This document shows, piece after piece, positions 14,991-34,642 of a stretch of DNA of 34,642 nucleotides. Source of the stretch: Candidatus Goldiibacteriota bacterium. GTDB lineage: Bacteria; Oederibacteriota; PGYV01. Below the pieces are notes generated by a model. It was not told the DNA's origin. It worked only from the letters and a program-made list of their open reading frames with translations, and did not search any database. The first letter of the stretch is position 1, and each line of letters begins with the position of its first letter. The translations under genes and the position numbers were made by a program. The DNA lies in NCBI GenBank assembly GCA_016937715.1, contig JAFGWA010000075.1, positions 1 to 34,642 on the forward strand, in the 5' to 3' direction.

Positions 14991-17900
14991 TTAAAAAAGT
15001 ACCGCCTGATCCGAATCCGGCAGGCTGCCCGCTAAATTATTTAACTTCATGAATTCTACCACACTTTTATTGACTTTTGTCCTTTTGACAAGGTCTTCCA
15101 CGGATGTAAACTGTGACTTGTGCCTTTCAATGGAAACACTTATGGCTACTTTTTCGCCAAGCCCCGGCACCGCGATTAAAGGCGGCAATATTTTACCGTC
15201 TTTTACCGTAAAGCGCGTCGGATGCGACTTATACAGGTCAACCTTTGAAAAAACATAACCGCGGTCTTTCATTTCCACAAGTACTTCAAGCACCTTAAAT
15301 CTGTCTTTTTCTTTTTTATCCGCGTCCTTCATAAACCTGGACTCGCGCAGCCTCTTTTTTACCGCTTCAAGGTCCATCGCCATGAATTCATATTCAAATC
15401 CGCCTATGTCCCTGTTAAGGTAATCAGCGTAAAAATGCTCCGGATGGTGAATCTTTATATACGCGATTCTAAAGGACATTATGGTATATGCCACAGCGTG
15501 CGCTTTGGGAAACATATATTTTATCTTTTTGCACGACTCAATGTACCATTCAGGCACCTTGTGTTCTTTCATGGCCTTTTCAAATTCAGGGGTAAGCCCC
15601 CTGCCCCTTCTGACACTTTCCATTATAGAAAACGCAAGGCCCTTCTCAAGCCCTTTTCTTATCAGGTATTCCATAATGTCATCCCTGGTGGAAATTACTT
15701 CTTTAAGGGTGGCTGTCTTTTTATTAATAAGTTCCTGCGCGTTTCCCACCCATACATTGGTACCGTGTGAAAGCCCTGAAATATAAACAAGTTCCGAAAA
15801 AGTCTTTGGCTTGGTGTCATTTAACATCTGCCTTAAAAAACCGGTGCCGAACTCCGGGACTCCAAGAGTACCTATCTGGCTGTCGTAATTTTCCGGATTT
15901 ACATTTAACGGCTTCAAACTGCTGAAAATCTGCATTGTTTGTTTATCATCAATGGGAATATCCGTCACTTTAATATTTAAATCCTCACAGATATGTTTTA
16001 AACTTGTGGGCAATTCATGGCCAAGGGCGTCTATCTTTACAAGCGTATCATGTATGAAATGGTAATCAAAGTGTGTGGTAATAGATACCTTGTCCGGCGC
16101 GTACTGAACCGGGGTAAAATCGCATATTTCCTTATCATCGGGAACAAGCATAAGCCCGCCTGGGTGCTGACCTGTACCGCGTTTTACATCGGCGCATCCG
16201 ATTGCAAGCCTCAACTTTTCAGCATTTTTAAGATTAGCCCCTGTCTTTTCTATATACTTACTCATGAAATCTTTTTTAATTGCGTTCTGCTGCAGCGTGT
16301 TAATCGTCCCCGCTTTAAAAACCTTTTCTTTGCCGAACATATTTATAAGAAAATTGTGTATCTTTTCCTGATACTCTCCGGAAAAGTTAAGATCTATATC
16401 AGGAACCTTATCGCCTTTAAATCCCATGAAAGTTTCAAAGGGTATATTAAATCCGTCGCGCGTCATTTCAATTTTGCAGTACGGGCATTTTTTTGAATCC
16501 ATATCCACACCCGCAAGTTCTGTATCTATGAATTCCATGTATTTACACTTGGGGCAAAGGTGGTGAGCCTGCAGGGGGTTAACCTCTGATATTCCGCAAA
16601 GATAAGCCACAATTGACGACCCAACGGACCCCCTTGAACCCACTATGTAACCGTCCATGTTGCTTCTTTCCACCATAACTTTTGCTATAAGATATAGCAC
16701 CGCGTAATTATTGCCTATGATAGATTTAAGCTCCCTGTCTATCCTTTCTTTAACTTCCGGCAGGATATTATCCCCGTACAGTTCGGCCGCGCGGTTCCAT
16801 GTGGCTTCCCGTATTTTATTATCCGCGTCAGGTAATGAAGGCGGATGAATCTTTGAAGGCACCGGTTCCAAAGCAGGTTCTATAAGGGCTGCTATTTTTT
16901 GCGGGGCTGTAATAACAACTTCTTTGGCAAGTTCAGGACCCAGATAGGCAAATTCTTCAAGCATTTCATCGGTGGTCCTTAAATACAGCTCCGCGTCCGC
17001 TTCTTCAAATCCCATTGCAAGCATCAGAAATTCCCTGTAAGTACGGTCTTTTTTATTTAAAAAGTGGGCATCACAGGTGGCCGCCACCGGCTTGTACATT
17101 TTTTTTCCAAGTTCCACTATGCGCCTGTTTATCCTGTGAAGGTCTTCTATTGAAGCCAGCGTGCCGTTCTTTAAAAGAAACATGTTATTTGTATCGGGCT
17201 GAATCTCAAAATAATCATAACGGGCGGCTATCTCTTCAATTACTTTTTCCTGCTTCTGTTCAAGAATCGCCTGATAAAGTTCACCCAGATAACACGCCGT
17301 GCCCAGCACAAGCCCTTCCCTGTTGGCTTTTAACAGCGAACGCGGTATCCTTGGTTTTTTATAAAAATATTCAAGGTGTGAGGCGGAAACAATTTTATAC
17401 AGATTCTTTAAACCCGTATAGTTTTTTGCAAGTATTATTATGTGCCACGGCTTATCATGTTCTTCATCTTTGGCTTCCCTGTCATCCACAAGATACCCTT
17501 CCATACCAAAGATAAGTTTTGTGGCGCCCCTCTGTTCAATCGCGTCCATATAACCTTCGCGCCTTGTCCTGCCTTTTACAAAAAGGTCCTTGTGCTTTTT
17601 CTCATAATAATCCACAAGCCTTTTATATGCGTCAGGAAAAGAATGCACCACGCCGTGATCGGTAATTGCCACCGCGGTATGTCCCCAGCTGGCAGCGGTT
17701 TTTATATAATCATCCAGCGCCATCAAAGAATCCATCGCGCTTAATTTGGTATGGGCGTGAAGTTCCACCCTTTTTTCCGCCGCACTGTCATGCCTCTCCG
17801 GCGCTTTAATCCGGTTAATCCTTCTTACTTTTGCGGATAATTCCCCGTCCCGGTCGTCATAAGACACTTCCGCGGAAAGCCTTACATAAGAAAGCGCGGA

Positions 17901-18716
17901 TAATGTGTCCCTTAACCCGTCATTTTCATCAATAAACGCGATACATTTCAAAGTATCTTCGTCATCCGTTATATAAAACTTAATAATGTATGTACCTTTT
18001 TTATTTTTAAGTTCGCTTATAGGTTCGGCATCAGGGTCAAAAAACACCCTGCCTTCCAGGATATATTTGCCGGCTTCAGAAATTGAATTTATCGATTTAA
18101 CAATGCCTTTTATTTCTTCCTTCACAAGCACTTTACTTTCCCTTTCACGCTTTCCCGTTATCTTTATGGAAGCAGCTTCAGGTTCCGCCGCGGGCTGATC
18201 CGCGGATATGGCTGTTGTTTTAACAGAAGCAATTTCAATATCCCTTGCGAAGAAATCCCTTATTGCTTTTCTTATAGAGGCCTGCACCCTGAAATCAGAA
18301 AGCTTGCCGGCAATAAATTCATTTTCACAAATAAGTTCCATTTTATTATCCGTAAACGAAGGCCTTGTACTTAAAATCCAGGTCCGCGCCTCACCGGCCC
18401 TTTCCGCAAAAAACACCCAAAGTTCTTTTATCTGGCTTTCGGTGGCGCCGCCTTCCTGAAAATTTATTTCAAAAGAAGCCGGCATTTGCGCGTTATTTTC
18501 TATTACGTTTTTAAGCGCGCACAGATAGGCCGCCGTAACCCCTTCCTTTACGTCAAGCGTAACCTGCACTTTAAAATCATTACCTTTGCCGTTTAATTCA
18601 ACGCGGTTAAATGATATTAATTCCGACGAGGGGTCGTCCTTTAAAGCCGGAAGGTTTTCATTCAGGATTCTTTTTGTTTCATCACTGTCAATTTTTATAA
18701 TATAAGCTGAAGACAT
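14991..18716 (-). CDS. polC: DNA polymerase III PolC-type alpha subunit lacking the exonuclease domain
   Basis: A 1241-residue replicative polymerase. Order: N-terminal region to about residue 190, OB-fold (about 195-305), PHP domain (about 315-555), polymerase palm/fingers and C-terminal helix-hairpin-helix region. PHP ligands are all present: His320, His322, Asp353, His354, Glu406, His425, Cys475, Asp549, His551. The PolC zinc finger is Cys721/724/744/747. Catalytic Asp773 and Asp775 ('VPDIDLNFSGEYQ') and Asp896 ('LVKIDALGHE') are intact. In Bacillus PolC (about 1437 residues) a DnaQ-like exonuclease of ~180 residues sits inside the PHP domain. Here only 18 residues separate Glu406 and His425 and no 'ETTG' motif exists. 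RBS AAAAGG; promoter at 18824-18852. Proofreading must come from elsewhere or from the PHP site. Confidence 0.95.
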   Translation of the reverse strand: MSSAYIIKIDSDETKRILNENLPALKDDPSSELISFNRVELNGKGNDFKVQVTLDVKEGVTAAYLCALKNVIENNAQMPASFEINFQEGGATESQIKELWVFFAERAGEARTWILSTRPSFTDNKMELICENEFIAGKLSDFRVQASIRKAIRDFFARDIEIASVKTTAISADQPAAEPEAASIKITGKRERESKVLVKEEIKGIVKSINSISEAGKYILEGRVFFDPDAEPISELKNKKGTYIIKFYITDDEDTLKCIAFIDENDGLRDTLSALSYVRLSAEVSYDDRDGELSAKVRRINRIKAPERHDSAAEKRVELHAHTKLSAMDSLMALDDYIKTAASWGHTAVAITDHGVVHSFPDAYKRLVDYYEKKHKDLFVKGRTRREGYMDAIEQRGATKLIFGMEGYLVDDREAKDEEHDKPWHIIILAKNYTGLKNLYKIVSASHLEYFYKKPRIPRSLLKANREGLVLGTACYLGELYQAILEQKQEKVIEEIAARYDYFEIQPDTNNMFLLKNGTLASIEDLHRINRRIVELGKKMYKPVAATCDAHFLNKKDRTYREFLMLAMGFEEADAELYLRTTDEMLEEFAYLGPELAKEVVITAPQKIAALIEPALEPVPSKIHPPSLPDADNKIREATWNRAAELYGDNILPEVKERIDRELKSIIGNNYAVLYLIAKVMVERSNMDGYIVGSRGSVGSSIVAYLCGISEVNPLQAHHLCPKCKYMEFIDTELAGVDMDSKKCPYCKIEMTRDGFNIPFETFMGFKGDKVPDIDLNFSGEYQEKIHNFLINMFGKEKVFKAGTINTLQQNAIKKDFMSKYIEKTGANLKNAEKLRLAIGCADVKRGTGQHPGGLMLVPDDKEICDFTPVQYAPDKVSITTHFDYHFIHDTLVKIDALGHELPTSLKHICEDLNIKVTDIPIDDKQTMQIFSSLKPLNVNPENYDSQIGTLGVPEFGTGFLRQMLNDTKPKTFSELVYISGLSHGTNVWVGNAQELINKKTATLKEVISTRDDIMEYLIRKGLEKGLAFSIMESVRRGRGLTPEFEKAMKEHKVPEWYIESCKKIKYMFPKAHAVAYTIMSFRIAYIKIHHPEHFYADYLNRDIGGFEYEFMAMDLEAVKKRLRESRFMKDADKKEKDRFKVLEVLVEMKDRGYVFSKVDLYKSHPTRFTVKDGKILPPLIAVPGLGEKVAISVSIERHKSQFTSVEDLVKRTKVNKSVVEFMKLNNLAGSLPDSDQAVLF

Positions 18717-32364: not shown

Positions 32365-34642
32365 CTATCTATAAACATAAACCTTACTAATATTTTTAAT
32401 TATCCTTGCAGTATTTACGTCTTTATATGTTATTACCGCAATATATATTCCCGAAGACACCCTTGTTCCGGATACCGTCTTCATATCCCATTCAAAATCC
32501 AGCGAATTCAAGGTGTAATGACGTATAATTTCCCCTCTTAAATTGTAAATTTTCACCTTAATCCATTCGGCATCCGCTACAGCACCGGTAAACCTGATAT
32601 TATTCTTATCATAAACTATCCGCAGATCCTGAATTCCGGGTGCATTTTCCAGTATCACAGAGAACAATTTAATCAGAGTATATTCATTTCCATTGTTATC
32701 AACCGAAACAATTTTCGCAGTATAATTACCTGTAGGGGCCGAAACGCCGTCTTTATCTTTTCCATCCCATATGCCTATCAGCCTGCCTTTACCTTCACGG
32801 AATTCAAGCAGCGAAGTGCCTCTGTTTATAAACGGGTCCTGTGAAAGATAACTTTGATGTACCGCTTCGTCATTTCCCTGTTCAGCAAGCGTTGATACAA
32901 GCCTTCCGCTGCTGTCGTATACAGTAATTTTCACTTTATAATCAAGTATTATAACAGGTGTTACAGTAGGAGTAATACTGCACGTTGCCGTGTAATATAT
33001 TTCCGGAGTATTTGAAACAGTCTGCGTTGCGGTCCGCGTTACAGTAGGCGTTATCGTGCCTGTTACAGTAAGGATATCAGCCGGCGTATCTGTTGATGTC
33101 TGCGTATTTGTAAAAGTGGCTGACGGCGTAGCCGTTTCTGTAACCGTCCAAGTAATCGTATCTGTTACTGTCTGAGTGGACGTCATAGTGACTGTCTCCG
33201 TTACAGTTTCAGTCATTGTCCCGGCTGCGGTTTCAGTCGTTGTCTGTGTAGCGGTTTCAGTCATAGTTTCTGTTACTGTCTGCGTCACGGTTTCGGTTGC
33301 CGTTTCTGATGTTGTATAAGTAGCAGTTTCTGTACCTGTCTCAGTTCCGGTTTCAGTTGCAGTCTGTGTTGCAGTCTGTGTTGCAGTCTGTGTGGCAGTC
33401 TGTGTGGCAGTCTGTGTGGCAGTCTCCGTTGCTGTCTGAGTAGTAGTTTCTGTAACCGACTCAGTTACAGTGCCTGTCCCGGTTATCGTTTCCGTTGCTG
33501 TCTGCGTCGCAGTTTCTGTCATAGCCTCAGTAGATGTTTCAGTTACTGTTTCTGTTGCTGTTTGAGTGGTTGTCTCTGTTACTGTCTGAGTCGCAGTCTC
33601 CGTTACAGACTCAGTGGATGTTTCAGTTACTGTCTCTGTTGCTGTCTGTGTAGCGGTTTCCGTTACAGACGCAGTGGATGTTTCTGTTATAGTCTCTGTC
33701 GTTGTCTGTGTGTTTGTATCTGTCATTGTCTCGGTTATAGTCTGAGTAGCAGTCTCTGTTACAGACGCAGTGGCTGTTTTAGTATTTGTCTCTGTCGTTG
33801 TATCGGTTATAGTCTCTGTAACAGTCTCCGTTACAGACTCAGTAGACGTTTCAGTTACAGTCTCTGTTGCTGTCTGTGTGGTTGTTTCTGTTACAGACGC
33901 AGTAGATGTTTCAGTTACTGTCTCTGTTGCTGTTTGAGTGGTTGTCTCTGTTGCGGTCTGAGTAGCAGTCTCTGTTACAGACTCAGTAGACGTTTCAGTT
34001 ACTGTCTCTGTTGCTGTTTGAGTGGTTGTCTCTGTTGCGGTCTGAGTTGCGGTCTGAGTAGCAGTCTCCGTTACAGACTCAGTAGATGTTTCAGTTACTG
34101 TTTCAGTTACTGTTTGAGTAGTTGTCTCAGTCATTGTCTCTGTTACGGTCTGAGTAGCAGTCTCTGTTACAGACTCAGTAGATGTTTCAGTTACTGTTTC
34201 TGTTGCTGTTTGAGTAGTTGTCTCAGTCATTGTCTCTGTTGCGGTCTGAGTAGCAGTCTCTGTTAAAGACGCAGTAGACGTTTCAGTTACTGTCTCGGTT
34301 GTTGTTTTTGTGGTTGTTTCTGTTACAGACGCAGTAGACGTTTTAGTTACTGTCTCTGTTGCTGTCTGTGTAGTTGTTTCTGTTACAGACGCAGTAGATG
34401 TTTCTGTTACTGTTTGAGTAGTTGTCTCAGTCATTGTCTCTGTTACGGTCTGAGTAGCAGTCTCTGTTACAGACTCAGTAGATGTTCCAGTTACTGTTTC
34501 TGTTGCTGTTTGAGTAGTTGTCTCAGTCATTGTCTCTGTTGCGGTCTGAGTAGCAGTCTCTGTTACAGACGCAGTGGCTGTTTCAGTTACAGTCTCTGTT
34601 GCTGTCTGTGTGGCTGTCGCGGTTATTGTCTCAGTTGCCGTC
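32365..34642 (-). CDS. Giant Thr-rich repeat surface protein with FlgD-like Ig C-terminus (5' end outside window)
   Basis: The reading frame stays open to the right edge of the window, so the N-terminus and any signal peptide are missing; at least 758 residues are present. Residues covering roughly the first 560 follow a strict (Thr/Ser)-x alternation, with x mostly Glu, Ala, Val or Gln (TETATQTVTETMTETTTQ-like). The last ~196 residues are folded: 'VKITVYDSSGRLVSTLAEQG', an FlgD-like Ig module with 'GIWDGKDKDGVSAPTGNYTA', then a second beta module ending in 'SGIYIAVITYKDVNTARIIK', similar in style to C-terminal sorting/Ig domains of secreted proteins. It is probably exported and anchored, with the Thr-rich stalk open to O-glycosylation. 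An ATG at 34530 exists inside the repeat but is not a credible start. Confidence 0.85.
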   Translation of the reverse strand, partial: TATETITATATQTATETVTETATASVTETATQTATETMTETTTQTATETVTGTSTESVTETATQTVTETMTETTTQTVTETSTASVTETTTQTATETVTKTSTASVTETTTKTTTETVTETSTASLTETATQTATETMTETTTQTATETVTETSTESVTETATQTVTETMTETTTQTVTETVTETSTESVTETATQTATQTATETTTQTATETVTETSTESVTETATQTATETTTQTATETVTETSTASVTETTTQTATETVTETSTESVTETVTETITDTTTETNTKTATASVTETATQTITETMTDTNTQTTTETITETSTASVTETATQTATETVTETSTESVTETATQTVTETTTQTATETVTETSTEAMTETATQTATETITGTGTVTESVTETTTQTATETATQTATQTATQTATQTATQTATETGTETGTETATYTTSETATETVTQTVTETMTETATQTTTETAAGTMTETVTETVTMTSTQTVTDTITWTVTETATPSATFTNTQTSTDTPADILTVTGTITPTVTRTATQTVSNTPEIYYTATCSITPTVTPVIILDYKVKITVYDSSGRLVSTLAEQGNDEAVHQSYLSQDPFINRGTSLLEFREGKGRLIGIWDGKDKDGVSAPTGNYTAKIVSVDNNGNEYTLIKLFSVILENAPGIQDLRIVYDKNNIRFTGAVADAEWIKVKIYNLRGEIIRHYTLNSLDFEWDMKTVSGTRVSSGIYIAVITYKDVNTARIIKNISKVYVYR
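32956..34642 (-). repeat. 6-bp/12-bp periodic repeat encoding the Thr-x stalk
   Basis: The DNA has a six-base period (one Thr codon plus one variable codon). Superimposed are larger units, each ending in an STESV or STASV motif, with lengths of 20, 24, 28 or 32 residues, nearly always multiples of four residues (12 bp). Near 33355-33430 a 12-bp unit (GCAGTCTGTGTT-like) is repeated almost perfectly six times. The repeat is least regular toward the folded C-terminus (32956-33180), and it continues past the window edge. Lengths in 12-bp steps point to slippage or unequal recombination. Confidence 0.9.

Follow-up and report, generated by a model that had tools for sequence, protein, structure and literature searches.

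Results

The window encodes a PolC that lacks the exonuclease domain

The window, the 34,642-nucleotide stretch of DNA that we analysed, carries on its reverse strand an intact open reading frame for a PolC-type replicative polymerase of 1241 residues. Its features are as follows.

14991..18716, (-) strand: polC, DNA polymerase III alpha of the PolC type without the exonuclease (Exo) domain, 1241 aa; open reading frame, Pfam and equivalog profiles
14994..15008, (-) strand: QAVLF, C-terminal beta-clamp-binding pentapeptide (consensus QLSLF in the available text of PMC3919608)
15048..15248, (-) strand: helix-hairpin-helix (HhH), PF14579
16029..16031, (-) strand: D896, third polymerase aspartate
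16392..16400, (-) strand: polymerase catalytic motif D773-x-D775 (PDIDLNF)
16476..16556, (-) strand: PolC zinc finger, C721/C724/C744/C747
17217..17765, (-) strand: PHP domain, Pfam PF02811 match; nine ligands HHDHEHCDH
17442..17444, (-) strand: His425 codon, PHP ligand, 3' border of the usual Exo insertion site
17445..17498, (-) strand: 18-residue loop, residues 407-424, where other PolCs have a DEDDh exonuclease of about 200 residues
17499..17501, (-) strand: Glu406 codon, PHP ligand, 5' border of the usual Exo insertion site
17517..17621, (-) strand: PHP insertion, residues 366-400, genus-specific; modelled as a longer helix and one extra helix

Elsewhere in the window (32365-34530, (-) strand) lies a gene for a 721-aa protein with a weak match, under the curated cut-offs, to a type IX secretion (CHU_C / Por_Secre_tail) C-terminal domain.

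The PolC equivalog models PRK00448 and TIGR01405 scored 1278 and 1178 bits against the protein (cut-offs 873 and 1043), and DnaE models scored far under their own cut-offs. Pfam recognized the PHP, polymerase, fingers and HhH domains; neither Pfam nor equivalog profile searches of the protein matched an exonuclease domain or RNase_T. The protein has an OB-like region N-terminal to PHP, a zinc finger in the palm region, an HhH and a C-terminal clamp motif, and shares with the canonical PolC enzymes (B. subtilis, G. kaustophilus 3F2B and PDB 9qpc) the order N-terminal region, OB, PHP, palm-fingers with zinc finger, HhH and clamp motif. By contrast, the canonical enzymes have a DEDDh exonuclease between the fifth and sixth PHP metal ligands and the window PolC has an 18-residue loop there. 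The Exo insert is common but not universal in PolC, and the window protein is therefore an Exo-less variant. The predicted structure of residues 201-1241 had a mean pLDDT of 88.9 and matched PolC of G. kaustophilus (Gka) with a TM score of 0.90 in an alignment beginning at residue 212; the Gka structure, 3F2B, was itself solved without its Exo domain.

A preliminary description of this locus had reported 18 residues between Glu406 and His425 and no exonuclease domain, and both alignment and profile searches bear this out: the two ligands are 19 positions apart, and the segment that they bound spans 20 residues in the window and 217 in B. velezensis PolC (L164), where it contains the motif DVETTG. 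The length deficit of about 196 residues, ascribed to one missing Exo domain, likewise agrees with the 1437 residues of B. velezensis PolC as against 1241. All nine PHP ligands (H320, H322, D329, H354, E406, H425, C475, D549 and H551), the zinc-finger cysteines and polymerase aspartates D773, D775 and D896 are kept, as had been described. We found no repeat scars at the deletion site. The basic insertion noted at about residues 366-400 does exist (35 lysine/arginine-rich residues, with 10 K/R and 6 D/E); it is a helical extension confined to the window's genus and is not part of the Exo question.

The PHP site resembles that of proofreading DnaE enzymes

The nine ligands of the window PolC match the motif HHDHEH(C/H)DH that defines PHP-type proofreaders (PMC12926913). 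In M. tuberculosis DnaE1, the PHP domain binds three zincs through nine ligands and has proofreading activity, and a D226N mutant is inactive; Gka PolC, in which one PHP ligand is mutated, has no PHP proofreading activity (PMC5636811). According to the same study, the PolC DEDDh domain sits in a loop whose counterpart in Taq DnaE has 18 residues. Like the PHP-proofreading DnaE1 enzymes of M. tuberculosis and Thermus, the window PolC has these nine metal ligands together with a short loop, which is 18 residues long as in Taq. It differs from DnaE1, whose OB domain is C-terminal and which lacks the PolC zinc finger; moreover, PHP activity is proven in DnaE1 and predicted in the window PolC. At the eighth ligand position the window PolC has Asp549, and the PolCs compared from Bacillus, Listeria and Enterococcus have Asn.

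The Exo-less form is chromosomal and phylum-wide

The host is an uncultured bacterium whose order also includes Ca. Goldiibacteriota bacterium SKW142; in the NCBI listing, Goldiibacteriota stands outside Bacillota as a candidate phylum. The host's polymerases of this family comprise one PolC and one ordinary DnaE, and no second polC was found in the draft genome of 124 contigs. Two other genomes of the genus have an open polC, 95 and 89% identical and of the same architecture, which excludes chance or decay and bears out the earlier judgement that the gene is not decaying. Exo was absent from all 30 readable PolC loci of the phylum, which span many families, and the gap is therefore not an assembly deletion. 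An assembly or binning artefact, or a full-length PolC elsewhere in the genome, is exceedingly improbable: although the genome is a draft, it has a single PolC and a single DnaE, and the same architecture recurs at every readable locus of the phylum, including two same-genus genomes that are 99-100% complete. The preliminary description had named a second, Exo-containing polC and an assembly deletion as the two things that would overturn it; neither was found. The PolC of the window is thus chromosomal, naturally lacks the DEDDh exonuclease and is paired with a DnaE.

We also considered a viral origin and rejected it. Near matches labelled 'viral' or 'phage' PolC are mostly short unannotated records that probably represent host DNA; the phage enzymes that are annotated resemble DnaE, with about 23% identity to the window PolC. 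Two further observations concern the phylum. Four genomes of the window's order (G003, G004, G005 and G011) have PolC and yielded no DnaE at E <= 1e-40; PolC is reported never to occur alone, and these genomes are probably incomplete drafts. G003 is 94% complete, and DnaE is present in G008 of the same genus. The PolC of L031 (G017, family f10) is long-branched (end branch 0.95-1.1), Exo-less and PHP-intact.

Exo-less PolC is far commoner than reported

Absence of Exo had at first seemed to contradict the definition of PolC, a view that does not hold: the Exo-less form has been known since 2013. As given in the available text of that survey (Timinskas et al. 2013, PMC3919608), 6% of PolCs lacked Exo and came from Clostridia, Negativicutes and one extra Thermotogae copy; the Clostridia and Negativicutes enzymes share with the window PolC the gap at the PHP insertion point, the DnaE partner and the nine PHP ligands. 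The window PolC has every property of the 2013 variant, with no Exo, intact PHP and polymerase sites and a co-occurring DnaE. In an even sample of Bacillota, by contrast with the reported 6%, Exo was absent from 57 of 97 PolCs, more than half. Cultivable bacteria with an Exo-less PolC include species of Desulfosporosinus and Anaerovibrio. Of 13 PolC loci taken from elsewhere in the domain, none from the phylum of the window, 11 had an Exo-length insert and two did not. The Exo-less form is thus already known and far commoner than reported, whereas its clade-wide occurrence in a non-Firmicute phylum, in every readable PolC, is new.

Exo loss or original absence

The PolC tree, built without a named Thermotogae PolC, needs about 16 changes of Exo state, and forcing 16 Exo-less rows into one clade was rejected (p-AU 3e-6). 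Five PolCs (L099:2873-7093, L197, L141:5401-9624, L280 and L284) have an Exo-sized insert that has lost the DEDDh catalytic residues, together with an intact PHP site. L099 and L197 are closely related, and the five represent three or more separate lineages. By their sequences these dead-Exo enzymes look like intermediates, and they are counterexamples to the view that PolC never has an inactivated DnaQ domain. For Bacillota, repeated Exo loss is the simplest reading, because the changes are independent, the putative intermediates are dead and the insertion site is a single homologous one.

An alternative, compatible with PHP proofreading, is that PolC of the window's phylum never had Exo and that the ancestor of Exo-bearing PolCs gained the insertion afterwards. 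All readable members of the phylum are Exo-less, its PolCs form one side of a branch, and in one DnaE-rooted tree they branch first. However, once more outside phyla were added the root fell among Exo-bearing PolCs with the phylum nested, and we make no claim of ancestral absence from the rooted tree. The branch between DnaE and PolC is extremely long, and the repeated losses and dead-Exo intermediates of Bacillota also speak against a late insertion, which we consider unlikely. The fuller proposal, that the phylum's PolCs descend from a form never given the insertion, a state preceding the family hallmark in which PHP would have been the original proofreader, seems to us slightly less likely still.

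Every PolC compared keeps at least one of the two sites

We compared the states of the two sites in 220 distinct PolCs in which all nine PHP positions were readable. Exo was absent and PHP intact in 118, all of which read HHDHEHCDH; Exo was present but catalytically dead, with PHP intact, in 5; both sites were intact in 82; and Exo was intact with PHP broken in 15. None of the 220 had both sites non-intact, where about 8 would be expected if the states were independent, a figure that treats related sequences as separate. Because the sequences are related, events matter more than sequence counts. We accordingly set aside a raw Fisher test (p 0.0004) as pseudo-replicated and used an argument from branch share. 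The 15 broken PHP sites represent five events on the tree, all on branches with active Exo; such branches make up approximately 0.42-0.47 of tree length, and if five events fell at random the one-sided p would be about 0.013-0.023. When Exo and PHP states were compared in pairs on the tree, the test was not significant, since PHP losses are few and too few pairs were informative. The covariation is thus consistent with PHP proofreading, not overwhelming, and lends support to the option, raised in the preliminary description, that the intact PHP site corrects errors. The available text of PMC3919608 describes neither this covariation nor dead-Exo intermediates.

Conservation of a PHP site may also reflect other roles. 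The site might be kept for structure or other chemistry, such as a pyrophosphatase activity, with fidelity resting on base selection and mismatch repair and no proofreading at all; the available text of PMC4822814 proposes other PHP roles for E. coli DnaE. However, neither a structural function nor a pyrophosphatase activity would lead one to expect the nine ligands to be kept in 118 of 118 Exo-less PolCs and lost in some PolCs with active Exo. We therefore regard an exclusively non-proofreading PHP as doubtful.

Candidate proofreaders in the genome and in sister families

A stand-alone DnaQ, the other option raised at the outset, was not borne out. No RNase_T/DnaQ homologue was found in the window's genome (G000) or in the same-genus G002, which is 99% complete; the same search was positive in 11 of 14 control genomes. 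Nor did families f7, f11, f13 and f14 yield an RNase_T protein. In f12 and f15 the sole RNase_T protein is an oligoribonuclease, recognized by profile in three cases and by its N-terminus in the rest, and we rejected these matches as stand-alone DnaQs.

A different exonuclease could proofread in trans. A DEDDh-BRCT nuclease of about 310 aa, similar to PRK06195, occurs in several members of the order: in G001, where the match is of the PRK06195 type, and in G006, G007 and G013, with similar N-termini in G005 and G010. The window's genome has a single DEDDy (PF01612) protein, at G000:C88. This protein, however, is RNase D-like and nothing ties it to PolC, and the genomes and families that have no RNase_T protein, or an oligoribonuclease only, speak against such an arrangement as a whole. 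Proofreading in trans by either nuclease thus appears quite improbable.

The state of the DnaE partner differs between families. Its PHP site is intact in the window's genome and order, and PolC's PHP therefore need not be the only proofreader there. By contrast, DnaE PHP is broken in families f12 (8 genomes), f11 and f15 of the same phylum (L171, L172, L322, L324-L329 and L334), where PolC is Exo-less and PHP-intact. With the DnaE site broken, no DnaQ and no Exo, PolC's PHP is the only recognized candidate for a replicative proofreader in these families. Their division of labour resembles that of PolC and DnaE3 in Bacilli, but with PHP as the apparent proofreader.

Families f8 and f16 (L034-L041 and L043) present a separate picture, with no PolC found and stand-alone DnaQ-like proteins present. 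The best NCBIfam match of the protein from L035 (f16) is the PolC Exo domain. We considered whether these DnaQs are escaped PolC Exo domains; the tree gave no resolution.

Discussion

The reading that we favour, and hold to be reasonably probable, is that the window encodes a natural Exo-less chromosomal PolC that is paired with DnaE, presumably carries out bulk replication and is most likely proofread by its own PHP site. By analogy with other PolC bacteria, the window PolC would perform bulk replication. Mispaired primer ends would most likely be removed at its PHP site, a putative trinuclear zinc centre held by nine ligands, with a short loop in place of the Exo insert that resembles the loop of PHP-active DnaEs. 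DnaE, whose PHP is intact in the window's order, may take part in proofreading there. The anatomy, gene content and covariation were observed directly, whereas PHP catalysis in the window PolC is what we infer.

The 2013 survey described Exo-less PolCs, in its available text, from Firmicutes and a single Thermotogae copy; here they extend to a whole non-Firmicute phylum. PolC emerges as a replicase with two unrelated proofreading sites, one or other of which has been removed repeatedly in nature. All 220 PolCs, drawn from many lineages, keep at least one site, which speaks for a working proofreader in the PHP domain of PolC; surveys of 2013 and 2026 had raised this question and left it open. 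Exo-less PolCs would lend themselves ideally to a direct test, above all those from families whose DnaE PHP is dead. How common the Exo-less form is matters for annotation and for PolC as a target of antibiotics, and its pattern adds useful new evidence as to why PolC retains its PHP site.
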